Shown: positions 17,371 through 61,564 of the stretch, piece after piece | Numbering within the stretch: the stretch's first letter is position 1 | Layout of the letters: every line of letters begins with the position of its first letter | NCBI RefSeq assembly: GCF_032884065.1 | Contig: NC_088866.1 | Location: 60,934,168 to 60,998,167, forward strand | DNA from: Artemia franciscana | Taxonomy: Eukaryota; Arthropoda; Branchiopoda; Anostraca; Artemiidae | Length of the DNA: 64,000 nucleotides | Reading direction: 5' to 3' | Program-made: the position numbers and the translations under genes | The notes under the pieces: generated by a model | The model's input: only the letters and a program-made list of their open reading frames with translations | Databases searched by the model: none | What the model was told of the DNA's origin: nothing

Positions 17371-17694
17371 GCCTGTATAATGAAGTATATATTTTTGAAG
17401 AAATTTCTTAAAATTCAAGAAATCAGTAAAGCGTATCACACCTATGCTGGGGTTATTTATCTTGAGTGCATGTTTAATCTTTTATCTTTTAACTAATTAA
17501 TCATTCTTCCATTTAAAACTTGCTTATATAATGAAGTATGCATTGCCTTTGACTTGCCTGTATAATGAAGTATATATTTTTGGGAAAATATCTTAAAATT
17601 CAAATAAATTAGTAAAGCGTATCATCCCTATGCTGTGGTTATTTATGTTGAGCGTATGTTTAGCGTTTAATTAATTAGTCATTCTTCATTTTAG
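17371..17694 (+). repeat. tandem duplication of an intron end, including the 3' splice-site region
   Basis: GCCTGTATAATGAAGTATAT starts at 17371 and again at 17556. Both copies go through CTTAAAATTCAA, AGTAAAGCGTATCA and TATGCTG, to a pyrimidine-rich end: CATTCTTCCATTTAAAAC in the first, CATTCTTCATTTTAGAGAAG in the second. Only the second keeps the AG used as acceptor at 17693-17694. The duplication period is 185 bases. Confidence 0.85.
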
Positions 17695-18458
17695 AGAAGC
17701 AAAAAGAAACAAAGAAAAAAAAGAAGAAAGAAATTAAGGAAAAAAGACCGGCTGATAAAGAAGAAAATGATAGTAGAACTCTGATGGAGCTGCTTGAGCT
17801 TGAAATGCGCGCGAAAGCTATTAAAGCTCTTCTTGAAAATGAAACAAAAAATAAAGAAACTACCGAAACTGAAAAAAATTTGAATACGGACATCAAAACA
17901 GAAGTTCATGAAGAAGATACTGTGGATGAGGAGACAGAAGCTGGAGTAGCTGATGAAGATACTGATAGAACAATTAGTGAACTTATAGCTGATGATAAAA
18001 AGATGGATGTTGTTAGTCATGAAAGCAGTGAAGAAGAAATTGGTGAAATTAGAACAGGAGATGCTGATAAGGGAACAATAAGGTGGATATCAAAAGAAAC
18101 GAAGAAAGTGAAGCAAAAGAAGAGACGGAGGGAAAAATCTGAAAAGATTGAAAAAACAAGAAGGCAGTATAGGAGAAGAGGTGCAGCACTATCTACGCCA
18201 TCTTTATCATCTGAAGAAGAACGAGAGATCTCTGAAACCGATCATTCAGGCACCAAAGACCAAAAAGAAAATATTGAGTCAGAAGAAGGGGAATTTTCAA
18301 GTGATGAAAATAAGGAAAAAATTGGAAGCAAATTTGGGATGTCCGAGTGTAGAACAGTGGTAGAAGAAGTTGAATCTGAATCAGAGGAAATGATGGATGA
18401 AGATTATGATGTTCATGTCGAATCACCCTCATCAGACGAAAAGGAAAATTCAATTAAG
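17695..18458 (+). CDS. CAAP1-like protein, exon with the conserved LELEMRA motif
   Basis: The exon follows the acceptor CATTTTAG. Coding frame begins at 17697 after two bases shared with the preceding exon. It opens with a Lys/Glu-rich stretch, then MELLELEMRAKAIKALL (from 17784). This is nearly the same as the short C-terminal motif of vertebrate CAAP1 (caspase activity and apoptosis inhibitor 1), where I recall LELLELEMRARAIKALM. A long Glu/Asp/Lys/Ser-rich region follows, probably disordered, with acidic serine clusters resembling CK2 sites (SSEEE, SESEE). The end is uncertain. A donor AAG|GTAATA at 18458 is in phase 0 with the acceptor at 21795. If unused, the frame reads on to a TAA at 18510-18512. 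In vertebrates the motif is near the C-terminus, so the long acidic extension is unlike human CAAP1. Nuclear location is inferred from the basic tracts. Confidence 0.6.
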
Positions 18459-18727
18459 GTAATAATAAAGTTGGAGAAAAAATTTTCCCTTGAAGATTTT
18501 TCGAAAGTTTAACAGAAAAAAATTAGTAAGAATCACGAAGGTGGAACTTTTACGTAAAGTTTGGTTAAGAGAAATTCTTCTAGAAAAAACTATTCTGTTG
18601 AGACCTGCGCAATTCAACTGTCTACTAATTCAATTCGGTATGAAACGCAATTAGAAGCAACCGTGGCTGACATAAAAAGTTTTAATTTCAATTCTAGATA
18701 TTCAGTATATAACTACTACTACTATTA

Positions 18728-21292: not shown

Positions 21293-21794
21293 ATTTTATT
21301 ATTACATTATATCTTCTGAGGAGTAGTGGTATATTTTACCGCTGTAATTAATAACTGCATTTATTTACCACTTGTACTCTAAAATAAGCGAGTTCGAAAT
21401 CTTTACAGATTACAATTAATTTTTAAATTCGACCAGTTAAAACCAGATTTAATTTTGGGGTATACTGGAACCATTTACTATTATTAAACACCTGCCAGGC
21501 CGCTTTCTCCTTCCGTCAAGAATTCCAGTTTTCACTAAAAAAATTCAACTGTGCACAAAATTGTCTTTTTTGTGTGTGTAGAATTGACAAATTTTGGCCA
21601 GGCAGTTAGCCATTGGCCAGTATTCGATTTTTCTTTTCTTTTTTTTCTTTTTTTTTACGTAATTACAGCTTCTTGAGAACACTTAGTGTTTATTCGACTA
21701 TTTTTGTGTGCGCTAATAAAAATTCAAAATTTTACATGTATCATTTCCAATCAATCACGAACTTTTCTGAAAATTACCAACTTTTTTCTTTAAG

Positions 21795-23516
21795 GAGATG
21801 TCTGGTTCAACTGACGAGTTTAATCGTAAAGAAGCGGAAAAAACAAATGTTTTTGTTACGAGCAAAGGGGAAATCATTGGTTCGTTATCTCCTTACATTC
21901 TACAAGAAAATGGTGAATCTGTGAAATCAGAAGTAAAAATTCAACCATATATAACCAATACTAAGACTCAGCAAGCTGTGGACGAAAAGAAGTCTTCGAA
22001 TGAAGATTATATTTCTGATGATAGCATTGACTCGGCCCCATCCTCTACAGGTAGTGTAGAAAACTTGGAAGGTCAAGTGGAAGAAGAAAGTATGCATCAA
22101 GATCAAGAAGCATGTAGTCAAAGAAACGAAAGTATAGATTACAAAAAGTCAAAAGATCAAAGTACAAAAGAAGATACTATGAGTAAAGGGGAACTCCAGG
22201 GTGTTGAAAACAGAGAAACATTGGATGGTATAAATACTGAAGCTCAAAATCCGAATGAAATTGTAGCTAAAGGTAACATTCGTAAAAATGAAGATGTTTT
22301 AAAAAGAGAAGAAGGTCAGTGTACACAACAAGAAGCTTCAATAGACAAAATAAATGAAAAAGAAAATGTTCTAGATGACAAAGAAGCCAATCAAGAGATT
22401 TTAGATGACCATAGAAAAGAGGAAAATAAAAATACCAAAGAGGAAAATTTAGAAAATAAAGAAATAGCTGATGAAGATAAAGACTCTGTCAATGACAAAC
22501 AAGCCCAAAAAGAGAATAAAAAAGACACGAGCCGAAGTGACAAAATTTTAGAGGAGAAAGAAACAGTTGCGATAAATGAAGAGACTCTAGAGGACAAACG
22601 AGCTGACAAAGAGAGTTCGGACCATATAAAAGGGGAAAATAATAGCGCAATAAAACAGGTTTCACTGAAAGGAAAAGAAAAGGCTGAACAAAGCGCAATA
22701 ACAGTATATGATAAAAATATAGAAACTGAGGACAAGAAAGACGAGACTATACTAAAAGAGGAGGAGGCCAATGAGTCTGAGGCCCCGGTTGGTGATGATG
22801 GTTTTTGGAAAGGAGATTATGATGAGATTAATATAGAAGAGGAAGTAAGAGAAGAAGATATTTTAAATGACTTTAACTTTAATACCGATTCAGTGCCAGT
22901 GGTAGTGGAATATACAGTTGAAAGACCATTAACGAAATTTACGTTTCAGAGTGCTAAAAGAACTGCTCCAACTAAAGGAGGACTTAAAAGGATTAATTTA
23001 GGTTCAAGCAGAAGCGGGTCTCTAGAGGGACCTGTAGTAAAAAAGCCACTATTTATTGAGGGTGCTAAAGAAAGCAAACGGTGTGCTGCAGAAGATGGCA
23101 GAGAAATAAAGGAAATCCCTGTAGAAACCACCCAAAAACCTGTTCCACCTCTTATCCCCAAACCTCATGTAGTCCCTAAAAGGTCGGACTCTGGTGATAC
23201 AAAGGTTAAAAATTCTTCAACAGAAGAAAGTTGGAAAAGTCGTTACGTTACTAGTGACAAGGTTCAAAGAATAGTCGAAACGAGTAAAATTCTTTCGAAA
23301 GTCAGGTCTAAGATTAAAGAAAAGGCAACAAAAGAGGTGGAAAACCAAGAAAAGAACTTAGAGCAGGTTCAAGATAAAACGGTGGTCATCGGGACCCTTG
23401 AAGAATATGAAAGAATATCTGGTAAGAAAGTGGGAACAACTGCTGAAATAATTGACGATAATGAGGAAGAAGATGAAGAAGAATCTGCCCTTTGGAGTGA
23501 TATTTTTGGGAAATGA
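21795..23516 (+). CDS. acidic, low-complexity protein; last exon of the CAAP1-like gene or a separate gene
   Basis: An open frame of over 570 codons ends in TGA at 23514-23516. A splice acceptor (CTTTTTTCTTTAAG) precedes GAG ATG, so the exon may begin at 21795 in phase 0, matching the donor at 18458. Otherwise ATG 21798 could be a true start. Residues about 1-60 include VFVTSKGEIIGSLSPYILQE. Residues about 70-330 are a Glu/Lys/Asp/Asn-rich stretch with loose repeats (LEDKRADKE, LENKEIADED, LDDKEANQE), likely coiled or disordered. Residues 330-380 hold DDGFWKGDYDEINIEEE. The C-terminal third is more conserved-looking (VVVEYTVERPLTKFTF; KSRYVTSDKVQRIVETSKIL) and ends in an acidic run and SALWSDIFGK. 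I do not recognise the family. It is certainly coding by length and codon pattern. A Helitron begins about 45 bases past the stop. Confidence 0.75.
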   Translation, partial: EMSGSTDEFNRKEAEKTNVFVTSKGEIIGSLSPYILQENGESVKSEVKIQPYITNTKTQQAVDEKKSSNEDYISDDSIDSAPSSTGSVENLEGQVEEESMHQDQEACSQRNESIDYKKSKDQSTKEDTMSKGELQGVENRETLDGINTEAQNPNEIVAKGNIRKNEDVLKREEGQCTQQEASIDKINEKENVLDDKEANQEILDDHRKEENKNTKEENLENKEIADEDKDSVNDKQAQKENKKDTSRSDKILEEKETVAINEETLEDKRADKESSDHIKGENNSAIKQVSLKGKEKAEQSAITVYDKNIETEDKKDETILKEEEANESEAPVGDDGFWKGDYDEINIEEEVREEDILNDFNFNTDSVPVVVEYTVERPLTKFTFQSAKRTAPTKGGLKRINLGSSRSGSLEGPVVKKPLFIEGAKESKRCAAEDGREIKEIPVETTQKPVPPLIPKPHVVPKRSDSGDTKVKNSSTEESWKSRYVTSDKVQRIVETSKILSKVRSKIKEKATKEVENQEKNLEQVQDKTVVIGTLEEYERISGKKVGTTAEIIDDNEEEDEEESALWSDIFGK

Positions 23517-25720: not shown

Positions 25721-26553
25721 TCTATATATATAAAAATAAGTTGTTTGTGTGTGTGTGTCGAGTGACGTCATGTTTGTGTGTCGACTGACGTCATGTTTGT
25801 CGACTGACGTCATTTTAAGGATTAAGCTGTATGCGTCATGAAGTTGTTTGTCGACTGACGTCATGTTTGTCAACTGATGAAATTACATACCGGGACACAA
25901 ATGACGACCGGGACACAGGGAATATAAATGACGACCGGGAACCTCAAAGAGAAATTACAGACTGTGACACCCGAACACAAATCACGACCGGGACACAGGG
26001 AATATAAATGACGACCGGGACACAGGGACACAACTACAACGGGGACGGCGGGGGCACAGGCGGGATATATAAATGACGATCGGGACACAGGGATTGTTCG
26101 AATAGAAATTACAGACCGGGACACAAATGACGACCGGGACACAGGGAATATAAAGACGACCTGGATACTCAAAGAGAAATTACAAACTGGGACACCGGGA
26201 CACAGGGAATATAAATGACGACCAGGGCACAGGGACGCATGATTAGAATAATGAGGTATAGATCTGAATACGGATTGTTTTTCCCATGGACAATTATATG
26301 TTGCATGTTCAAGAGTCAGTAAACCTGACAATCTATTTATATGCATAGACACTGGGACAGCGAATAATGTTGTATATTCGCATGTTTTACGTAGTTAAAA
26401 ACATATATATATATCTATCTCTATTCACAGGTGGGACACAACTACAATGGCGCGTAACTAATATGGCGTGTAACGACTTTCGCGCGCGGGGGGGGCGCGA
26501 AGCGCCCCACCAACTAGGTGTTGGGGTGGCGCGAAGCGCCACCCCAACAGCTA

Positions 26554-26554
<1 letters not shown>
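25721..26554 (+). mobile_element. Helitron, non-autonomous relic 2, with two 3' termini
   Basis: Starts TCTATATATATAAAAATAAG after an A, and ends CTAG followed by T at 26555, matching Helitron insertion between A and T. It shares the GTCGACTGACGTCATG block, the GGGACAC subrepeats and the helicase C-terminal remnant (about 26225-26400) with relic 1. It has two successive terminal hairpins, each ending in CTAG: one at 26514-26517 and one at 26551-26554. The second hairpin, GGGGTGGCGCGAAGCGCCAC with its complement, is perfect. Confidence 0.88.

Positions 26555-26645
<91 letters not shown>
26555..26645. repeat. (TA)n microsatellite
   Basis: About 45 TA units directly abut the Helitron 3' end. 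Helitron insertion next to TA is expected, and later expansion of the flank is the simplest explanation. Confidence 0.97.
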
Positions 26646-26647
<2 letters not shown>

Positions 26648-26659
26648 GACTTTTCATCT

Positions 26660-29505
26660 TGATTTTGTAGTAGATAATTTCTTAAATTTCTCTGCAAGAG
26701 TAATATTACATTGATGAGAGTTTGAGTCAAGATAAGTAGTCCAAAATAAGAGTCGTTTAGTGTGAGGTCGATCCTGGTGTTGAATGCGTTTACTGTATAT
26801 AAGAAAATGCTCACCATAGGAATCAGTAAAAACTTAACATTATTTCAAAAACTGTGAGGTACAATCTCTCTAAAGGTCAAGCTCTACAGTCGTTTCTTTT
26901 TTGTTTCCCTAGTTCCTTCTCTGTAAAACCTTGCATGATTTAGTAAAAGAAGAAATTTTAATTGTTTATCACCCACACGATACATAAAGTTAGCATGGCG
27001 GAATAAGAATAAATAAAAAAAACGGAAAGAGAAAAACAACTATGCACACAAAGTCAATGAAAGAAACGGATAAGACGGTGATGAGGGGATAGGCGCGCAT
27101 AAACTGTACTGGAGTTTTCTGTGTAGATTCTCCAACTTTAAAGTTATATCAGGAGCTGAGAATTTGCTAACAAGAATCCAGTCTTTTTCTTTTTGTCCAA
27201 GGTGCAAGATACAGAAGAAATTTGCAAAATTTGAAATAATTTATCCAGATTCTCTTTAAATCACCTTTCTTAAGAAGGGGGAAAGGCCTGAAGCATAAAG
27301 GACAGAATAATCACAGAAAGTTGAATAACGTTTGGCCAGCATACGTCTATTATACTTCCCTCTGTTTGCAACAATCTTTGCATAGCCAATTTGGATCTTT
27401 TTACTTATATCACAAACAGTACGCTGACTCAAGCTCGAAAGATTGTTAGTAATAGAGATACCAAGCCAACGGATACAATCAACAAGAGGGATATTGAAGT
27501 TATTACAATAAAGGGGAGTAGTAGTAGTACAGTTATAGGGAAGAGACTCACATTTATATATTTTAAGTGAAAGGCCAATATCAGAAAAAGGCTCAGAAAC
27601 TGTAGAAGGGAAAGACCCTTTTTGGAACGGCTAATCAGAAGCAAGCCATCAGCATACGCAAGATAATAAACATCCGCAAGACCAGAAAGGTATGTACCTG
27701 AAATCTTAGCCAGCGCACTAGACATACAAATTTTAAAAAGCGTAGGGGACAAAAAACCACCCTGCCTTACTCCTCTTCGTACCCTTGTAATAGTGTCTGG
27801 TGGAGTTCTTAATTGAAGAAAAGACTTTGAATAACAAAACCTAAGAAGCATTATAACAGAGAGATTGACCCAGGAATTATACAGAGAAAAAAGGAGCTGA
27901 TTATGGACCACACTCAAACGCTTTAGAAAGATCCAAACCACAAATATAAAGACCATTTCCCTTGGAAGAATTATCAACCAGTAAAGAAGACAGAATCTTA
28001 TGCGCATGCTGACAACCCACCCCATGCCGAAAACCAAATTGGTTCTCACTCTCATTAATATTTTAGTCAGAAAAGAAGAAGGATGTACTCAAAAACCTTG
28101 CTTATGGTCCAAGAAACAGTAATAGGTAGATAGTAGGAACAATCAGTAGGTCACTTTCCCCTTTTTAAAATTGACGAAAAAGTGCCACACAGAAAACTCT
28201 CGGGTACGCTTGAAGTACATAGACATATTTGAAAAAGAAGATGAAGGTGAGATATAAGGAGGGTGCAATCAATCGACATATGCATCTTAGAAATATCATC
28301 CTTATCTATTGAATCAGATTTTAAACTTTTCTCAACATCAATTACGGAAGAAAAAGATATGGGCACTATATGGCTTTGCGAAAGGGTTGTACTGAAGGGG
28401 GGGGGGAGTAAGAATGGGAGTACATACAGAACGCACAGAATAGTTAATCACCGAAAAAATCGAAGAATAATGTTCAAACCAAGCTGAAGGTGGAAGGCAG
28501 TTACTTGTCACAGTATCATCATTTAACTTGTCAGAGTTGATTACTTTTCGCCAATCTTTCCTACTCACAAGAAAATCCATACCGCTGTAACGTGCCGACC
28601 TCAGATAGCGTTTATATTCGGTTTTTGTTTTACGTTAAGGATCAGCCAAACACCTAAAACTTGGCCGACCACATTTTTTCCATATCAGGAGCCATAGTTT
28701 CGCTATATTTTTTATCAACTTTAAACAAGGGTCCATTGACCAGATAGGTTTTTTTTTTTTTTTTTTTTTTTTTTACGAATACGTTGCCGAGGTACGGGAG
28801 CTTCTTCTGCCTTTTCCATACACATCTTAACAGTCAATATCGTCTTTGCATTCGTAGGTACCTGGTGCTGAAGAACATGGTATGGAATACGCAAGGTAGA
28901 AAGAAGGGCTGTCAAAGTAGATATTTAGTGCGGTATATTTACTATGCTCCATTTGCTTTTTTCAAACCACTTCGATTTTTCTCGCGAACAGTTAGTTTTC
29001 GATGGGTCAATATCCATTGTAAATGTCGTTGAAATTGGCATGTGGTCAGTATCTTGCTCGTTAACATGAACAGTAGCGGAAGAAGAGATATTACCAAGCG
29101 AGCAAATAATATGATCAATATCACTTGTACCTCCAGAGTGACAAATATACGCACAGTTGGGATCGGCAATGCATGGCTCGTTGTTTGTTGATATGTGCCA
29201 CCGTCCGCAACGAGTACATTTTGGGAGAACGCTGGGACAGTAGTTCTATAGATTGTCTAGTGATCGGCATTTAAAACAGCATTTGGGTAGGTCCTTATAC
29301 TCGTAAACAGGAAAAATTTCATAACCCATCCTGAGGCCATGCTTGAAAAACGTAGATTGAGCAAAAGAATCCAAAAATTCGTGTTTCACAGACTTAGATT
29401 GGTCCAATCTTTTAGCATCCTTGATACTGTGTTGGCTTTCAAGCAAAATTAAATGTAATCTTTCAAGATCTTGGTTATTTTCTGAAAACGACACTACCAA
29501 AGCAG
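26660..29505 (-). mobile_element. LINE with ORF1 zinc knuckle, endonuclease and reverse-transcriptase relics
   Basis: Read on the minus strand from 29505: an ORF1 (gag-like) end with CCHC-type knuckles (PKCCFKCRSLDNL, then CPSVLPKCTRCGRWHIS, about 29160-29290). Directly after comes the endonuclease C-terminus (HSGGTSDIDHIICS; DTDHMPISTTF, the S-D-H type motif with Thr in place of Ser). Then the linker and fingers (FCGTFSSILKRGK, about 28150-28200), ENQFGFRHGVGCQHAHKI (about 28030) and GVRQGGFLSPTLF (about 27760). The catalytic box is YLAYADGLLLIS (about 27650; second Asp replaced by Gly). Downstream text runs to about 27300. Several frameshifts, a T run at 28750-28775 and a missing N-terminal endonuclease make it dead. 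Probably CR1/L2-related. Confidence 0.8.
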
Positions 29506-33600: not shown

Positions 33601-34201
33601 CTCTTATACACTAGCGTAAATAAAGGGTTATGTGATGGGGCATTAACAACAAAAGCCCCATCCCCCTAATTTTCCTGGATTGACGCTACTGATCTTATAT
33701 TCTTAAAAACATAAACAATATAGTTGATTAAATTACATATCTCAGATTAATATTATTTGTACTTTCACACTGGTCCTTACTTGAAGACATTTACTTGTTG
33801 GATGCTAATACATATTAGCTTTGAAATGAATATTATTTAATATCCGAAAAAAAATCTCATACATGAAAATTTCACAATTTAAACATGAATTGCTAAAACA
33901 TAAACTATGGATGTGTTCTAGAACCCAATTATGATAAATAATCATTAATTAATTACTTATTATTCTGGTTCTGTGACAAGGGATAACACAAAATTATAAC
34001 AATTTTTTACCGCCATAATTGCGAAATGGACTATGAGATATGAACTATGATGCGGATAACCTATTTAGTGTATTATAAGCATTTCAGAGGGTAAATTTGT
34101 CGTTATTTGCTTTCTTAGGCTAGAGATAATAACAAGTAGCTAATGATCATTATTGATCAATCAGTTCCAGAACACACCCTATGGCTAAGGCAGAAGCCAA
34201 A
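30611..34201. other. no gene recognised; short hairpin and homopolymers
   Basis: AT-rich stretch with a C run at about 33000-33012 and T/A runs. It contains the presumed 3' UTR of the MED9/NCBP2AS2 transcript on the minus strand. The nearest polyadenylation-like signal there is ATTAAA (complement at 33837-33842), about 360 bases past the stop. ORFs in this stretch show no motif. Confidence 0.4.
32044..32076. repeat. perfect 12-base-pair hairpin
   Basis: CGCGGGTATAAG and its exact inverse CTTATACCCGCG are separated by nine bases. A related GTATAAGGATAAGAATCTTG lies inverted at about 32141. No gene or terminator context explains it. Confidence 0.85.
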
Positions 34202-34477
34202 TCAGCTTTTTTTACGTTCTTCTCCCTTCTTCAAGTTCTCCAATTCCTTTTTTAACTCCTCCTTAAAGGTTATTTTAAATTTGTCGATTCTGTCGGCTGC
34301 GTTTGTAGTAGTTTCTGATCGAACAAAATTTTCACCGGCTTCTTTCCCTTTAAGATAGGCGCCAACAACAATCTGTGCTGCTCTCTTCATTAATGGGGAT
34401 TCTGACAGTTTATGAACTAAGTGGGGGTCATTTAAGAAACGACCCATTAAAATCCTGGTAAGAAAACGGAGTGGCAT
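34202..34477 (-). CDS. NCBP2AS2: NCBP2AS2-like small mitochondrial-type protein
   Basis: A complete 91-codon frame starts at ATG 34477-34475 and ends in TGA at 34204-34202. The N-terminus MPLRFLTRILMGRFLNDPHL and then VHKLSESPLMKRAAQIVV match the family of human NCBP2AS2, where I recall MVLRRLLAALL, LVERLSES and RRAAQL. The family is about 100 residues long, so this one is full length. The N-terminus is basic and amphipathic, as in mitochondrial targeting. The C-terminus is Lys/Glu-rich. Its molecular function is poorly known. The ATG overlaps the stop codon of the upstream MED9 frame (TAATG), and both frames lie in one exon, so it is probably the second cistron of a shared mRNA. No separate promoter is evident. 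The name comes from the antisense location of the human gene and does not apply here. Confidence 0.85.
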   Translation of the reverse strand: MPLRFLTRILMGRFLNDPHLVHKLSESPLMKRAAQIVVGAYLKGKEAGENFVRSETTTNAADRIDKFKITFKEELKKELENLKKGEERKKS

Positions 34478-34623
34478 TATTGCTGTTCGTTTTGTCGCTC
34501 AAAGTTGCACAAAGATCTGTACTTGAGAAGAAGAGACCGTTTCAATTCAAGTTGCTGACGAAGATTTTCAATTTGTTTGAGTTGATCTTCAGGAGTCAAA
34601 TCGATTCCTTCAATTTTCTTAAC
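34477..34623 (-). CDS. MED9: Mediator complex subunit 9, C-terminal exon
   Basis: On the minus strand an acceptor CTTTCCTTCTAG is followed by 49 codons including the stop. The text VKKIEGIDLTPEDQLKQIEN, LRQQLELKRSLLLKYRSLCN and FERQNEQQ matches the C-terminus of MED9. The human protein, as I recall it, has MPGIHLSPEQQ...[22 protein letters not shown]. MED9 belongs to the middle module of the Mediator coactivator, which links transcription factors to RNA polymerase II in the nucleus. This part forms the long coiled-coil helix that pairs within the module. The exon starts in phase 0, matching the donor of the exon at 38809. The stop codon TAA (34479-34477) shares its last A with the ATG of the NCBP2AS2-like frame. 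Confidence 0.9.
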   Translation of the reverse strand, partial: VKKIEGIDLTPEDQLKQIENLRQQLELKRSLLLKYRSLCNFERQNEQQ

Positions 34624-36117
34624 CTAGAAGGAAAGTTTCCAATCAAATTTCAAAACTTGAACCGTGGAGATGCCCAACTCCATGGATGAATTATTTCATA
34701 TATAAATAAACCAATGTCTACTAATGCTCGATCAATCAGTTGGGGGGGGGGATTTCATAAAATATATATCAGAACCGTTATTTTAAAACAGAAAAAGTAT
34801 TAACTTGATTTGAATGATTCTGATTCAAATCCTGGGTCAGCTTTAATTGTTCAATTCCTGATTCAAAGCATACTTAATAATATTTCCTTACAGACTGTTT
34901 ATCGATAACAATAAGACTTGGTCACAAACCTAATCAGGTTTGATATTGAATATTTTTCTGATGCAACAGTTGAGGGTTAGTCCGAGATCCCCCCCCCCCC
35001 CCTTCTTATTTGCCTCAGTGAATACTGTGCTTTCAGTTTTAGACAATTTGGATCACTAAAAACGAAAAAAGGTCTAATCATTCTTTTTTGTTGCACAAAC
35101 TGACTTGCGGATCATTTCATAAATGGTGGGGAAAATGCTAGATGCTTCATATTGAAGCCCAAAGTTATTGAAAACTGTTGATTTCATCTGAAAATGGCTC
35201 AGATAAAACGTATTTAATCAGAATCTTCTGATTATTTTAGGAAAACACAATATACCTGTTGACTATGTTATGATGAAGCTCCAAAATAATTTTGATCAAT
35301 GAACTATCCGCATACAGTCGACGAAAAAAAAAACTGAAAACGAAAAAGGACAATAGAATAAGGAATTTCTAAAGCTTTATTTATGGCTAGAAAAGGGCTA
35401 ATTCTAAAGTTTTATGTTGCTTTTTGAGTATGAACACGAAGAGCCATCATGAGCAGTAATTAAACTAAGCTTAAAAACTTGGATTACATCAATTCCTTTT
35501 ACACAATAAATTTGTGGTATTCAAACATTTTATGCATCCTTGGAAGTTCCTTTTTCTCATTTACTCGTAGCAAACAAAGAGGGCCTGAATTATTTTAAAT
35601 ACAACATAAAAGATCAAAAATTGCTAAAGAGAATTCCTGTATTTGGCAAAACTTCTACAAAGCATTAGATTCAGTGTTTTGTATATTTCACCTAGAATAG
35701 TTAGTTTTGTGTTATAATATTTTTCTTTCTTTCGAATAACGGCAGCCCACACGAGAATCGTGGAATAAGCAACTTGTCCCTGACAATTTTAGCCTTTATA
35801 GCAGATTATGTTAGGTACCCCCCCTCCCTTGTTTTTACCCTGTTTATCAGGACATTTGGACACATGAGTCTGGTCACATGAGTTAATTTTAAAATCTGTA
35901 TAGCTAGCCATGATGGATTGAATAGGGGGAGGGGAGGAGGCTAACGAGAAGTAATCAAAATGGTTGCAACGAGCTGGAAAATGGTCCACTGACAGGTAAA
36001 AGTACGCAAAACTGTAGCCCCATGCTTTTGTATGGCACATTTTTAAGAAGATGACATCACAGTTCAATGAAAGATAAGAAACATAGGAGTTTGTCAAACT
36101 TCACCTAACGCTATTAA

Positions 36118-36344: not shown

Positions 36345-37885
36345 ATACAGAGGAAAATTTAAAGAAATTTTAAAGAAAGATTAAAAAATAAAAAGGCTCC
36401 AGGTACTGATAGTGCGTAATGAGTTTCTTAAATATGGTGGCTCTGAGGTTAGAAATAAGTTACTGAATATTAAGAATACGATTTTTGAAAAAGGGGAAGT
36501 ACATAAGGATAAGGAAAACCTTAATTAAAAAACTGTATAAGAAAGGTGATAGAGTGAGTGTGATAATTATCGAGGCATTAGTCCAGTCTCTGTAGGTAGA
36601 AAATTACTTAGTAATAAGATACTTTTTCGACTCAGAGATGCTGTAGACAAAGTTTTAAGAGAAGAACAGTGCAGTTTTAGAAAAGGTAGAGGATGTGTCG
36701 ACCAAATTTTCACTTTTAGGTTAATAATTGAGAAGTGCCTGAGTTGTCAAACACCTTTGGTCCTCAGTCTTATAGATTATGAGCAAGCGTTCGATTCTGT
36801 TTATAGAAGGGCTTTAGCAAAGGTCTTGTCCTTGTACGGTATATCAGACAAATATATTAAAGTGATTAGTGCTAAGCATGAGAATAAAACTGCTGCGGTT
36901 AAGGTAGGAAATGAGGTTAGCAGCTGGTTTTCTATTAAATCAAGAGTTAAGCAGGGTTTTGTTCTATCCCCTTTATATGGATCATTTTGATGGACTTCGT
37001 CTTAAGGAGCACAGGAAAGGCAATGGGAAAACAAGGAATCAAATGGCGAGGAAAACTCTCCTTGACCTAGATTATGCTGATGATTTAAGCATCCTAGATG
37101 AAAGTGTGAGCAAAGTGAATGAACTTTTAGACGTTTTGCAAGTTCAGGGTGCTGGGATAGGTTTGAAATTAATTTTAAGAAGACTAAGTCGCTAAGGCTA
37201 GTAATAAGTGAAGATGAAAAGGTGATGCTGGGAAACGAAAAGATTGATCAGGTGGGCAGCTTTACTTACCTTGGTAGTATTATTAGTAAAGACGATGGGA
37301 GCAGTGAAGATGTTAAAAGTAAAATAGCCAAGGCTCGGGGTGTTTTTCCACAATTAAAAAAGTTTGGAAGAATAGGAAGATAAATCTACAAACCCAGATT
37401 AGAATATAAGAAGCTACAGAGGACAGTGGTCAAACATGGGTCTGAAGCATACGCGCTCCGAATTAAGATTTGCTAGATGTTTTCCAGAGAATTTGCCTAC
37501 GGATTGTTCTGGGTACCCGGCTGATTGACCGTATGTCAAACAGTAGGCTGTACGAAAAATATGGTTCAATCACGCTTTCTAGGGCTATAATGAAAGAAAG
37601 GTTAGGATGGATAGGGCACTTTGTGCGGATGAGAAAATTGACAAAGATTGTCCTTTTCGACCAACCGTCTAGGACTAAACAGAAAGCAAGTTGTCCTCGT
37701 CTTTGGTGGGAGGACGTCATAAAGAAAGATTTAAAATAAATGGGAACTTCCTGGGGGGTGTAAAAAGGGAGGCTTTTAATACATTGGGATGAAGGGGGAG
37801 CGTGCTTAGCTGTGTTGGTCTCAGGCGGCTTGGTGCTGCGGTGAATTGTTGTTAGTAGCAGTAGTAGTATTTGGATAAAAAAAAA
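36345..37885 (+). mobile_element. LINE (non-LTR retrotransposon), RT to 3' end, decayed
   Basis: Plus-strand frames with frameshifts give, in order: KNKKAPGTDS (36395 region), LYKKGDR, then SLIDYEQAFDSVYRRALAKV (36757; LINE F-D-S-V block). Next come VKQGFVLSPL (36950), LLDLDYADDLSILDESVSKV (37060; intact Y-A-D-D catalytic box), GNEKIDQVGSFTYLGSIISK (37235), then FQRICLRIVLGTRLIDRMSN (37480). The end has RLGWIGHFVRM and CPRLWWEDVIKKDLK (G-H and R-P-R-x-x-W-x-D motifs). It closes with GGTCTCAGGCGGCTTGGTGC and a TAG trinucleotide tail. 5'-truncated. RTE- or BovB-like in style, clade unresolved. Other fragments of the family at 13985, 57975 and 62381 are on the same strand. Confidence 0.9.
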
Positions 37886-38808: not shown

Positions 38809-38914
38809 CAATTCTCGAGCTATGTCAATTTTCTTATGTAGTTCAAGTAGTTTTTGTGAAGCCTCTTGGGAGTCTGCTTTCCTTTGACTAATATCAGCAG
38901 TATCTTTTTCAAAT
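38809..38914 (-). CDS. MED9: Mediator complex subunit 9, internal exon
   Basis: A 106-base exon on the minus strand between acceptor TTTTATTTTTCAG and donor GAATTG|GTAAAT. After one base of a split codon it encodes 35 residues, starting FEKDTADISQRKADSQEA and ending SQKLLELHKKIDIAREL. It joins in frame to VKKIEGIDL of the next exon. It aligns with the human MED9 segment containing [20 protein letters not shown] and MRKL. Together the two exons give 83 residues, which covers most of the conserved Med9 domain. The first exon, which should encode the F-L-P-L-V/I type motif and end two bases into a codon, was not found up to 64 kb and may be short or outside the window. The overlapping plus-strand frame at 38459-38887 is its shadow. 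Confidence 0.88.
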
Positions 38915-39288: not shown

Positions 39289-39561
39289 ATGATGGAAAAA
39301 AAGATGTTATTTATTGCATTCGTATTGCTTTTTCTTGTCAACCAGTCTTTTAAATTTAACTGCCATTTGGACTACGTCCATGTATCAAAATTTGCATCAA
39401 GTGAGCGTTGTATTGGTTGCAATGGCCTGCATGTTGGCTACAGATATTTGACCTGCAAATATCCAAACTTGGGCAGCCCATGTTGTATCAAACAGTTCGT
39501 GGTAACGAACTGTAGTAAGGAGCGACCCGGCTCAATAGTAACCAAAACTCTAAAAAATTGA
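39289..39561 (+). CDS. small secreted cysteine-rich peptide, interrupted by a transposable element
   Basis: The frame has ATGs at 39290 and 39293, just after a splice-acceptor-like TTTTCGTTTTCTTTTCAAG. The N-terminus MEKKMLFIAFVLLFLVNQSF is a textbook signal peptide. The predicted mature part has Cys spaced C-x15-C-x2-C-x11-C-x8-C-C, ending GSPCC. A closing Cys pair is common in defensin-like and other disulfide-rich secreted peptides, but I cannot assign a family. From about 39483 the frame runs into the left end of the foldback element (IKQFVVTNCSKERPG...) and stops at 39561. So the native C-terminus is probably lost or replaced by about 25 transposon-derived residues. It may be a real gene with a disrupted or exonised 3' end, or a gene relic. 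The true first exon, if any, is not identified. Confidence 0.45.
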   Translation: MMEKKMLFIAFVLLFLVNQSFKFNCHLDYVHVSKFASSERCIGCNGLHVGYRYLTCKYPNLGSPCCIKQFVVTNCSKERPGSIVTKTLKN

Positions 39562-46149: not shown

Positions 46150-47720
46150 CTGTTGTGTCGGATGGATGGTCTGTCATCAGCAAGAACCTTGTATGATTGT
46201 GGTTGAGGGCAAGTTTCAGTTACTATTCCTCTTTTCTAAGGACTGTTTGGTATTGCCTGGACATGTACTTCTGATCTTACTTTATTTCTGGCAGGGATTT
46301 GGCAGTCCCATCGTAATAATCTTTTTGGCGTGCTCTGCTTTGTTTTCTATATGACACAAACTTATTTTCAGGCACTAGTTGCTTTTCTTGATGCTTCTCT
46401 GTGACAGGGAGTACTGATTGCAACTGCAGGTCATGAACAGCTGGACTGGGGCTGCCATTCCATCCACAGGTATGTTATGGTATTCAAGCAGGCCAGTGTA
46501 TGAATCTCGTCCACTTAGCATAAATTTATTGTCTTTTTTCAGGTCTGCATGCTCTTTTCAACACATGCATTTGTCGTGGGGTGGTAGGGACTAGGTGCGT
46601 TGTGATACCCCAATCTTGGGTGAATAACTGAAATTCCCTGGAGTTGTTTGGGGGCCATTATCTGTTGGAAGGATTGCTGGTATACTTTTGCGTGCGAATT
46701 GCCCCTTCAGCTTAGTAACCACTTGGGTAGTGGTAGTAGAGGTTAAGCTATCAACCTCTGCTATATTAGTCAACAGGTATAATATAGTGTTTGCTGTTCC
46801 ACTAAAACAGGTCGCACCCCAGATGTTGCCAGGGTAAGGCTGGAAGTAGTGTGCAAACCATTGGTTCTTTTTGGTTGTTGGCTTTTGTATGAATGCAGAC
46901 ATTGCACTTTTGGATAAATATCTGGATTTGTTTTCCAATGCCGGGTCAGTAGACTATCATTTGAGCTGACTGCTTTGTTTTGTCTGCACCCAAGTGTGAG
47001 GAGTGCAAAACCTTTAAAATTCTTTCTTGTAAAATGGCAGGGATGAAAATTCTGGACCCTTTAAAGATTAAATTATCATACATTGAAAGGTCCAGACAGA
47101 TGTTCCAGTAGTGCACTATTGTTTTGAGCATGATTTTCCATTACTTGACCAACAATCTTGAACAGTCTTTCTCAGTGTTGTCAGTTCGTGATCTATGGCA
47201 GTATTTTGCCTAATTCTAGTTTGTTGTCTGTAGCAGGTAGAGTTGTTCGTTCGTGATATATAGCAGTCTTTTTCCTGATTTCCTCTAGTTTGTTGTTTGT
47301 AGCAGGTAGAGCTTTAACGAATGAGTGGACAAATATTTTGATTTCTTCTTGCATATGTTCATCCACATCTGGCAAATGAAGTATTGATAGTTGTACGACT
47401 GGATATACATCATAAGGCGTTGAATTCTTGGTGAAGCTGTTTGAAGAGGTTCTGTATCGTTTCGAGGGGTCAATGATCTGTAATGACTTTTAAAGATGTA
47501 ATGATGGAAATGGAGGCAACCATAGACAATAGCAAACAGTTCTTTTTCTAATTGGGAATAATTCTGCTCCAACTTACTCGGTGATCTTGATGCATATGCA
47601 AAAACTTTCCTGTTTGTAGATATTTAGGCTCCAAGTCCATGTTTTTAGTCATCAACTTCCAGCTCTAGAGTCTGGCTGGAACTATCATAGAAAGCCCAGT
47701 TCATGACTTTAGATTCTTTG
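46150..47720 (-). pseudogene. Gypsy pol remnant: RT end, RNase H, integrase
   Basis: Minus-strand text in order: MNWAFYDSSQTLELEVDD (end of RT), YASRSPSKLEQNYSQLEKEL and FAIVYGCLHFHHYIF (RNase H, about 47520-47600), RIQRLMMYIQSYNYQYFICQ. Then the integrase H2C2 region (ERILKVLHSSHLGADKTK, about 47000), core end IPAILPTDNGPQTTPGNFSY (about 46640), YTGLLEYHNIPVDGMAAPVQ (about 46430). Last is a C-terminal KVLADDRPSIRHNRVRI-like tail (about 46180). Stops and frameshifts are frequent. A segment of about 70 bases near 47193-47310 is tandemly duplicated (TTGTTGTCTGTAGCAGGTAG and TTGTTGTTTGTAGCAGGTAG). Confidence 0.82.
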
Positions 47721-55900: not shown

Positions 55901-57555
55901 GAAATATGCTCTTACATTTTCAAGACTTCATAAATAGTTGGCAGTAAGTTGAACTCTTTTTCGTAAACAAGTGACATAATTTTTTATAATTATTGCCAAT
56001 TGACGAATCTTGCCTTATGTAAGGCGACGTTAAGACTCGCCGTTTTCCGAAAAACTGGGACAGAAATTGGAGGTATAGGTATAGCCTAAGCTGTAATTCC
56101 ACTTTGTTGAGATCAAAATGCACCTTTGTGATATATTTATTATTGCTTTGCCTTAAATCAGGCTTTTGGGCTTAATTCAGAGCTTAGCAGATAGAAATCG
56201 GTCAACATTTGTCTATGAGACAAAACTGCAAACCTGTTGCGCCTTGACTTCCACTTTCCCGAGTCACTTTTTCTGACATTGTTTTATCATAGTAGTGCCT
56301 CAGACACTGCATCCTCAATCTTATCTCCAAAAGATACATTTTTTGGAAGAAATAATTCCACGTTGATGACTACTTTCTCTTGGCTATAAGTGTTTGAAAA
56401 TAGGTCATATTTTCGACATGAAATTAAATTTGTCCTTCCATGTTTTGTTATCGAAAAAGTCTGTTCATTTCCCTATTTCTGAATGTTTAATTTTTCTTAT
56501 CGTTATCTTCTCTGGGAAACTTAATGTTTTTTTTTTTTTCAAATATATGGCTTGATAAGAATCCTAGATGACGGAACAACCCATCTTCACTGTTGTCTTT
56601 CTATCATGTTAGCCCATTTATTGGCACTTTTTCGTGCCATATTGAAAAACAAAACATAAATCAGTTTATAAAATGGGTCAACACTTAATAGTTTCCCAAG
56701 CTTTCGTTTCAGTTTTCCCGAAAATGCCAACTATATAATACAAGATGGAAAAAGTCTTTTGGTTCGAATAAATATCTGTTTTGTCCTTGATTCCTTCGTC
56801 AAAAGTCTGTTTTCGCTTTCGTCCCCATCTCATCCATCATTTCTTCTTAAGCTGTGCAAAGTTTTCGCCTTGAGACTGGAATAGCAATCAATTTGTGTAA
56901 AATAATACATATAACTAATGAAATTTGAAGTCTTTTAGGAAATCTTTGAAATTTTAAAGGCCTGAAGCCTTTTAGAAATTTTCTAGATATCCAAACAGAA
57001 CTTTTTCCCATATCGGGTATTAATAAAGCATTTAGATATTTTCTATCTGACTTGAGGAACTTGCTAGAATAAATTTGTGTTTTGAGCATAGATTTAGATG
57101 CTGGAAAAAATCTATCTTTTCATTCAATGAATGGTCGCCTTAGTGAGGAAAGCGCATGAGTGGGATTTTAACTGTCATCTATTTTAAATGAGTTGCTGAG
57201 TTTTGCTGTGTTCAAATAAGCAATTTTAACTCAGATTTGTGGCCTGCTTTGTGGCTAATCAATCCGTTTAGATAGGAAGGGTTGAACAGATTCAATTTTT
57301 AAAGAGCGTTTGCTTGGGACAAAAAAGATGGATTTTTCATATAAAAAGTAGCCTATTATCTTTTGGTAAATTACATTTGAAATTATAAAATAAGGACACA
57401 TAAAAAAATAAATATTTCTAAGAATATTTTTCGTGAATCCTGGCTTATGAAATCAATCATGTTGTAAATAAACGCACTTTTGATGTGAAGTCAGTTTACC
57501 CCAAAGCTGACTAATCTTGGAATCAATTTCAACTGGAAGTCCCAAATTAGAGTCA
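52961..57555. other. no gene recognised
   Basis: Long AT-rich stretch. At 53.4-54.2 kb broken frames (AIYVAGLDTHYSSLTFFQQK; VAESIVRKLSKRGIPMDKLA) read like protein-coding sequence that has decayed. I cannot name the family: a dead DNA transposon is possible. From 54.3 kb on I see nothing supportable. The frames at 53071, 55920 and 56847 lack motifs. Confidence 0.4.
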
Positions 57556-59806: not shown

Positions 59807-61564
59807 AATCCTCCCTTGATTGAAATGGGGAATCAGGAAATGAAGTGAACTTTACTTTTCCACGGTCTTTTACAATATCTCAAAGATTACTAGGTTTTTA
59901 GTCTGGAGGGGCGCAAGCATTTGTTTTTTCATTTGCTAGCCTATCAGCTGTCACATTGTGGGTCAGTCCTTAATAGTTGGGGATGTGGCGGAAGCAAACT
60001 GAAGTGTTAACATTCATAAGGCTTAGGAGAGAATATCCAATAGATTTTAAATCTGAATCATCAGCCTCATAATTAGTGCTTTTGATTAGTTCGATGGCGG
60101 ACTTAGAATCTATGAGAAATAAAACGTTTTTTTAAAGCAGGTCTGAGGTTGACCATGATTTACAGTGCTTTTTGAATGGAAAATAGCTCTGCTGACGAAA
60201 TTGAAGCATTGGATTGATAAGCTGCTGATATATTCAATGAAACATAAAGAATACAAATCCCTGCTCCTGCATTTTATCCCTTTACAGAGTTATCTTTGTA
60301 AACTCGAGTATGTCCAGGAACTAGTAGGGACATTTTATTGAAAAAAAGCTGACAAACGCACTGATAAGTATAACAAGATTTATCCTTAGGGAGCAATTGG
60401 AGATGACACTCAGGGGCTGCCATTTCCTATAGTAGAGAATTTGGAAAACGGTAACTACCTGTTTTTTCATTTCTCTAATTTGGATTATCTTTCAGATATT
60501 GACACCAGGAAGACATTTGGTGCTGAAGCTTAATAGGGTTTGCAAAAGTTACTGGAAAGACTTCATGTTTATCACCATAATATAAAATTTTTGTAAGTAA
60601 CGGTTTCTCTGCACAGTATCTTTCAGAACAGATAGTCCAGAGAGTTCTTATAGCTTAGTTACGGCAGTATGCTTATGGAGCCCTGATACAGTTCTCATGG
60701 CTGAATTTTGGAATGTCTCTGGGATTTTAGACAAAGTTACTGGGATATTTACAAAGAATTGAATGCCATATTTCATTTTAGATCGAATATACAGTTAAAA
60801 AAAAAAATCAATAATCATTTTTGGGGGAGATCCCCATTTAGATCCTGTAAGTGACTTTAGGATGATGGGTAGTTTTAAATTGTCCTTCTCAACATCATCA
60901 CATGTGGTTACCATTTTAAACGAGAGTCAAGTGTCATACCCAGTAGACATAAAGATGAGAAAGATCCCTTCTATCATAAGAGTTTAGGGTCGGTTGCTTG
61001 TGGGTTGTAAAACAATGTTGCCTTTGTTTTTGGAACAGAAATGAGCTGACTAAAAACTTTGGAAAAGAGGTAAACATCATCAATGTCTTCCTGACTTATA
61101 CTTTGGAGTAAGGTTACACTCTTGTGTCTATTCCACGCCAGAAAATCATTAGCGAATCCTCCATTTTTTTACTGACTTCTAAGATTTAATTTTGAGATAT
61201 ACAGTGTAAATAAGGCGGACTTACGACAGTTGCTTTTGGGAAACCATCTATAACTTGTTTTCTTATAGACAGAGTTTCATTTACCTGAGCTTGAAAAGAA
61301 TGACCCCATAACAGATCATCTATCATTGATAACACTATAGATGGAAAATTTTTATTATTCATAACTTCTAGTAACTTTTTGTGTTTGACATTTCCATATG
61401 CATTTGTCCAATCAAACAGTACAGCGTATCCAAATTCACCTTCCTTTAAAGCCTCTGCCTTGTCTCTTTCTATTATGGTTATTTTGTCGATTGCTCTGTG
61501 ACCCTTTCCAAAACCTGTTCAGGATTGAGGTATCATTTGATTGACCTCTGCAAACCCTTCTATT

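Follow-up and report, generated by a model that had tools for sequence, protein, structure and literature searches.

A candidate dicistronic gene in Artemia franciscana with MED9 and an NCBP2AS2-like frame overlapping at TAATG

On the minus strand of a 64-kb window (the term used here for the whole stretch of DNA analysed), the stop codon of a MED9 gene (TAA, 34479-34477) shares one base with the start codon of a second, complete frame similar to NCBP2AS2 (ATG, 34477-34475), the two forming a TAATG stop-start overlap at 34475..34479. The reading that in our view best explains this arrangement, and to which we give roughly even odds (about 0.5), is that of a genuine dicistronic nuclear gene: its mature mRNA would carry both MED9 and the NCBP2AS2-like protein, with the latter read mainly by leaky scanning. 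If one mRNA does make both products, expression of a core subunit of the transcription machinery would be locked to that of a small protein about which little is understood, and the arrangement would hint at what the NCBP2AS2 family does.

The two overlapping frames

The coding part of predicted exon 3 (34202..34623, minus strand) contains the end of MED9 and the entire second frame. Its acceptor, CTTTCCTTCTAG, ends at 34624, with the exon running from 34623, and ranks only 401 of the 3660 AG sites scored with a home-made splice matrix. When re-read, the acceptor, the TAA and the ATG all fall exactly where the preliminary description had placed them, and both frames are intact, on the same strand and in one predicted exon. 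The MED9 portion of this exon (34477..34623, minus strand) comprises 48 codons plus TAA; by itself it matches the Pfam Med9 model with E = 1.3e-10 (41.6 bits, profile positions 42-80) and the solved MED9 chains in the PDB with a best E of 9.7e-8.

The N-terminal part of MED9 is predicted to come from two further exons. A scan of the three minus-strand frames over 29,377 nt upstream recovered a single match to the MED9 motif, near 55953. The frame containing it is short, beginning with an ATG at 55977 and reaching a GTAAGA donor after 55916, and thus defines the coding part of exon 1 (55916..55977, minus strand; MSLVYEKEFNLLPTIYEVLK plus AT). An in-frame stop at 55986 lies ahead of this start, and the same matrix puts the donor 24th of 3013 GT sites. 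Exon 2 (38809..38914, minus strand; (I)FEKDTADISQRKADSQEASQKLLELHKKIDIAREL) was obtained from an exon scan; its acceptor, TTTTTCAG, ranks 24 of 3660 AG sites and its donor, GTAAAT, 109 of 3013 GT sites, and its phase is compatible with both exon 1 and exon 3. This form was picked on phase, its raw score of 31 not being the highest among the best 31 rows of the scan. Four longer forms with a score of 39 (two with the same start and two from 38903) are out of phase by arithmetic, and an unrelated candidate at 39639-39442 (score 33) does not join exons 1 and 3 in phase; among these six candidates, only 38914-38809 does so by the same arithmetic. Joined, the three coding parts (62 + 106 + 147 nt) encode a protein of 104 aa, which matches Pfam Med9 (PF07544) with E = 2.4e-20 and 72.8 bits against a cut-off of 26.9, over positions 2-80 of the 80 in the profile, a test that covered the joined protein with the chosen exon 2 form only. 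The introns measure ~17.0 kb and ~4.2 kb; an RVT_1 fragment on the opposite strand, at 36553-36990 (+), sits within the second of them.

The second frame (34202..34477, minus strand, with its stop at 34204-34202) is complete and encodes 91 aa, a length close to the 99 aa of human NCBP2AS2 (KRASIM/HIAR). The human reference used throughout is a working version of the sequence, of which the length of 99 aa is confirmed in print. Local alignment of the two scores 91 over residues 8-79, above every one of 20,000 shuffles (maximum 54), and when all 1166 open stretches in the window with 30 codons or more are compared with the human protein, the second frame comes first and the runner-up reaches 41. 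Together with the Med9 profile match of the spliced protein, this upholds the earlier statement that both frames are recognisable and neither is chance. As the matched segments, RILMGRFLNDPHLV and RRLLAALLHSPQLV, already start at residue 8, the ATG of the overlap is a better candidate for the start codon than the next methionine, at residue 11. On this alignment, the second frame is similar to NCBP2AS2 over most of the protein. An acceptor-like site at 34454 (minus strand; TTTTCTTACCAG), just inside the second frame, is the best in 34800-34202 by the home-made matrix; splicing there would drop the first ATG of the frame and leave Met 11.

No Pfam match was found for the second protein at E <= 10, and human NCBP2AS2 likewise has no Pfam model above cut-off (best E 0.055). 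A PDB profile search with an alignment of these two proteins returned three matches, the best with E 0.35, which were rejected. A single-sequence AlphaFold2 model is all-helical, with a mean pLDDT of 68 and a pTM of 0.46; a Foldseek search of the PDB with this model gave 25 matches at E <= 10 and none at E <= 0.001, so that its fold is left unassigned. The preliminary description had called this partner a probable mitochondrial protein, a view that its N-terminus does not bear out: helical moments are low (0.14-0.28) in all of the first four 18-residue segments, and residues 1-30 carry a net charge of +2. Human NCBP2AS2 is described as a hypoxia-induced, secreted protein whose function is essentially unknown (PMC13326166).

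How far the overlap geometry speaks for itself can be gauged from shuffled sequence. Sixty Markov-shuffled 64-kb strands yielded a single stop-start overlap in which the open frames reached at least 48 and at least 91 codons (0.017 per strand). Under looser limits (at least 40 and at least 60 codons) the figure rose to 0.65 per shuffled strand; in the real window, five such matches were counted over both strands, at four places that include the MED9 locus. The other places are at 39290 (+), 18019 (-) and 37719 (-). As overlaps under the looser limits recur in both shuffled and real strands, the geometry by itself is weak evidence; judged from the sequence comparisons above, the overlap is real by virtue of the homology of both frames.

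Copy number and the integrity of the locus

The whole 1.27-Gb genome was searched for further copies, with only the best candidates scored in each search. Human NCBP2AS2 as query gave one match at E <= 10, namely the second frame, with a modest E of 0.0079 (2 candidates scored), and the second-frame protein as query matched only itself (6 candidates scored). The Med9 profile, for which 12 candidates were scored, gave one match over its cut-off and three that fell short of it, with E 2.57-8.3, while MED9 exon matches numbered three, all in the window on contig C4 (4 candidates scored). Since no second copy of either gene was found in these searches, this exon is unlikely to be a processed fusion of genes that persist intact elsewhere, and the concern that the true genes might lie outside the locus is thus answered within this genome. 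More generally, retroelement fragments are present in the window and many COX1 copies lie in the genome outside the mitochondrial contig, both of which could point to an artefact, be it a pseudogene, a processed fusion or an assembly error; but both frames are intact, MED9 has introns, the best candidates scored include no other strong copy of MED9 or of the second frame, and the locus is inside a 63-Mb contig. We consider an artefact very improbable.

The human NCBP2AS2 gene owes its name to lying antisense to NCBP2. The locus described here differs in this respect: with a working version of human NCBP2 as query the best matches in the genome are on contig C16, whereas the MED9/second-frame pair is on C4. 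In all five of five scans of viral and prokaryotic contig collections, run with sequences or alignments of the pair, no relative was confirmed; given the composition of these collections, absence from them is uninformative on arthropods.

A probable shared transcript and the translation of its second frame

The first AATAAA or ATTAAA signal after the MED9 stop is a candidate ATTAAA at 33836..33841 (minus strand), 361 nt past the second stop; neither hexamer occurs on the minus strand between the start of exon 3 and 33841, so a MED9 mRNA should carry both frames. Weaker variants of the poly(A) signal are present inside the second frame (CATAAA at 34414, AATGAA at 34391) and from the second stop to 33841 (AAGAAA at 34116, AATACA at 34074, ACTAAA at 34069). 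The MED9 stop would probably lie in the last exon, and a single mRNA with MED9 and the second frame is the simplest model, one that we hold to be quite likely. Of the bicistronic gene proposed in the preliminary description, what stands is the pair of intact, adjacent frames in one predicted exon ahead of any such signal; the shared mRNA itself is what we infer from them.

The opposing model places the second frame on a transcript of its own, which would either start from a promoter within intron 2 or within exon 3, or arise by alternative or trans-splicing to an acceptor, e.g. the one before 34516. Trans-splicing occurs in some crustaceans, and there is an acceptor-like site at 34517..34536 (minus strand; TCTCTTCTTCTCAAGTACAG), whose use would place an exon start at 34516, 39 nt ahead of the second ATG. 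This site outscores the predicted acceptor at 34624 (4.55 against 2.44), which would allow for a separate, shorter second mRNA. However, its pyrimidine run encodes the conserved MED9 stretch LLLKYRSLC, for which reason the likeness to an acceptor is probably due to chance, and 158 of the 3660 minus-strand AG sites score at least as high. From the literature on flies, it may be added in favour of two mRNAs that, of the 159 dicistronic gene pairs in FlyBase release 6.04, just 45 depend on a dicistronic transcript to make both products (PMC4528330). Taken together, we regard separate mRNAs as unlikely.

On a shared mRNA, the second start could be reached by several routes, among which leaky scanning is slightly favoured as the main one, taking somewhat over half of the odds given to such an mRNA. 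A ribosome that scans on from the MED9 start would meet just one AUG, with a U at -3 and a frame of three codons, before it reaches the second start; codon-shuffled versions of MED9 contain 2.35 on average, a scarcity that is not significant (P = 0.19). The start contexts are AAAATTATGT for MED9 and GCAATAATGC for the second frame, with an A at -3 in both and, at the MED9 AUG, a U at -1, -2 and +4. In the 323 nt examined ahead of the MED9 start, upstream AUGs are found at 56290, 56279 and 56208, i.e. 231 to 313 nt before it, and none nearer; should the transcript start above these, scanning would be hindered. Moreover, if leaky scanning were the sole route, the tight stop-start overlap would have to be a coincidence.

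It is this overlap that speaks for coupled termination-reinitiation, the mechanism suggested in the preliminary description, in which a ribosome terminating at the UAA of MED9 would slip back onto the overlapping AUG and initiate anew, as happens at the UAAUG of influenza B segment 7. The UAAUG fit is exact, and this layout is among those listed for coupled restart, which in influenza B reaches about 10% (PMC5972666). Against it, neither the UGGGA core of the viral element nor GGGA or TGGG occurs in the spliced mRNA over the 330 nt that extend from the MED9 AUG to a point shortly beyond the overlap, and folding of the region is ordinary (z = 0.24 for one 194-nt stretch, with 120 of 200 shuffles folding at least as well). 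Restart after long ORFs is, moreover, presumably very rare according to one review (PMC5972666), and another cites a prediction that ORFs of more than 55 codons prevent it (PMC4705651). The layout is therefore what remains of the suggestion as originally made, leaky scanning fitting the locus equally, and we treat reinitiation as a tentative and rather doubtful explanation. A -1 frameshift late in MED9, yielding a MED9-NCBP2AS2 fusion, could draw on the second frame being open for seven codons upstream of its ATG; yet by eye these codons contain no X-XXY-YYZ slippery site, and the alignment to human NCBP2AS2 requires nothing upstream of the second ATG, leaving such a fusion barely credible.

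The preferred dicistronic reading can be put as a sequence of predicted steps. A promoter upstream of 55977 would give rise to a pre-mRNA from which the introns of ~17.0 kb and ~4.2 kb are spliced out; the mature mRNA would contain the MED9 frame (104 aa), the one-base overlap and the frame of the NCBP2AS2-like protein (91 aa), and would end beyond 34202. Some ribosomes would bypass the MED9 start, meet the one weak AUG and then initiate at the second start with its A at -3, and reinitiation at the UAAUG may make some additional contribution to the second protein. Production of a transcription subunit and of a small, probably helical protein would in this way be linked. A much bolder extension, which we think decidedly improbable, is that MED9 and the NCBP2AS2 family form an arthropod-wide unit predating the crustacean-insect split, with UAAUG-coupled restart that follows a full-length cellular protein and does without the viral 18S-binding element. 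If true, cells would have here a new kind of termination-reinitiation system. The UAAUG case given in the review is a viral one (PMC5972666). In any event, a UAAUG after a 104-codon cellular protein provides a clean animal test of leaky scanning versus reinitiation after a long frame.

Known dicistronic systems and the genomic surroundings

The preliminary description had termed termination-reinitiation rare in nuclear animal genes. The word calls for some qualification in view of the 159 dicistronic fly pairs (PMC4528330); the MED9/NCBP2AS2-like pair is unusual in animals, where dicistronic genes are nevertheless already established. It resembles the FlyBase pairs in having two frames on one strand, in a spacing that falls in the range of -34 to 319 nt seen for fly loci with only polycistronic transcripts, and in the small size of its products, small proteins being over-represented among those pairs (PMC4528330); it differs from them in being known here from genomic sequence alone. 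The closest known case in spirit is, by analogy, the human RPP14/HTD2 mRNA, in which a subunit of a nuclear RNA machine (RNase P) is likewise followed by an unrelated protein (PMC5932603). This bicistronic relation is reported to be conserved over 400 million years (PMC5932603). The proteins are other ones, however, and HTD2, a mitochondrial enzyme of known function, is encoded within the 3' UTR (PMC5932603).

Two further groups of systems bear on the mechanism. Termination-reinitiation in influenza B segment 7 and in caliciviruses shares the stop-start overlap, which is UAAUG in influenza B (PMC5972666), but depends on an element (TURBS) whose motif 1, UGGGA, is complementary to helix 26 of 18S rRNA and is missing from the 330 nt of spliced MED9 mRNA examined; structure is also no better than chance in the one 194-nt stretch folded. 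In bicistronic genes of green algae, for which tests fit leaky scanning, few AUGs precede the second start and this start has an A at -3 (PMC11892635), both as at the present locus; unlike in the algal genes, the MED9 AUG is not clearly weak and the scarcity of AUGs falls short of significance.

For Drosophila, MED9 (CG42517) had been put forward in the preliminary description as part of a dicistronic locus split from an older gene model. In the portion of the literature searched, MED9 was not found in any dicistronic, bicistronic or polycistronic locus, CG42517 included. CG42518 is named there as an RNA-editing target, and the main text of a study of fly 3q29 genes makes no mention of NCBP2AS2 (PMC7043793). 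CG42503 is one half of the Mocs2 dicistron (PMC4528330), and a CG number neighbouring it, as with CG42517, would suit a split dicistronic locus.

Elsewhere in the window, neither tRNA genes nor Rfam matches at gathering score were found. Besides the RVT_1 fragment in the second MED9 intron, two others are present at 27429-28088 (-) and 61186-61518 (-), the three having Pfam E-values of 2.8e-14, 2e-9 and, below the cut-off, 0.0012; an RT_RNaseH retroelement fragment lies at 47285-47623 (-) (Pfam E 5.6e-13). Two long Glu/Lys-rich open frames, at 17679-18512 (+) and 21771-23516 (+), span 277 and 581 codons and have no Pfam match at E <= 0.01. A frame at 25870-26394 (-) consists of repeated PGRHLYSLCPG-like units and is overlapped by one at 26349-26714 (+) that reads IYIYIY, a TA-type simple repeat.

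Across the genome, COX1 gives at least 65 matches at E <= 1e-10, distributed over long and short contigs, while the plasmid collection contains nothing close to it. Eleven of these matches extend over 435 or all 436 positions and have no stops other than TGA, one of them being a contig of 15,822 bases, whose COX1 reads in the invertebrate mitochondrial code. Judging by these matches, the genome looks rich in nuclear mitochondrial copies.
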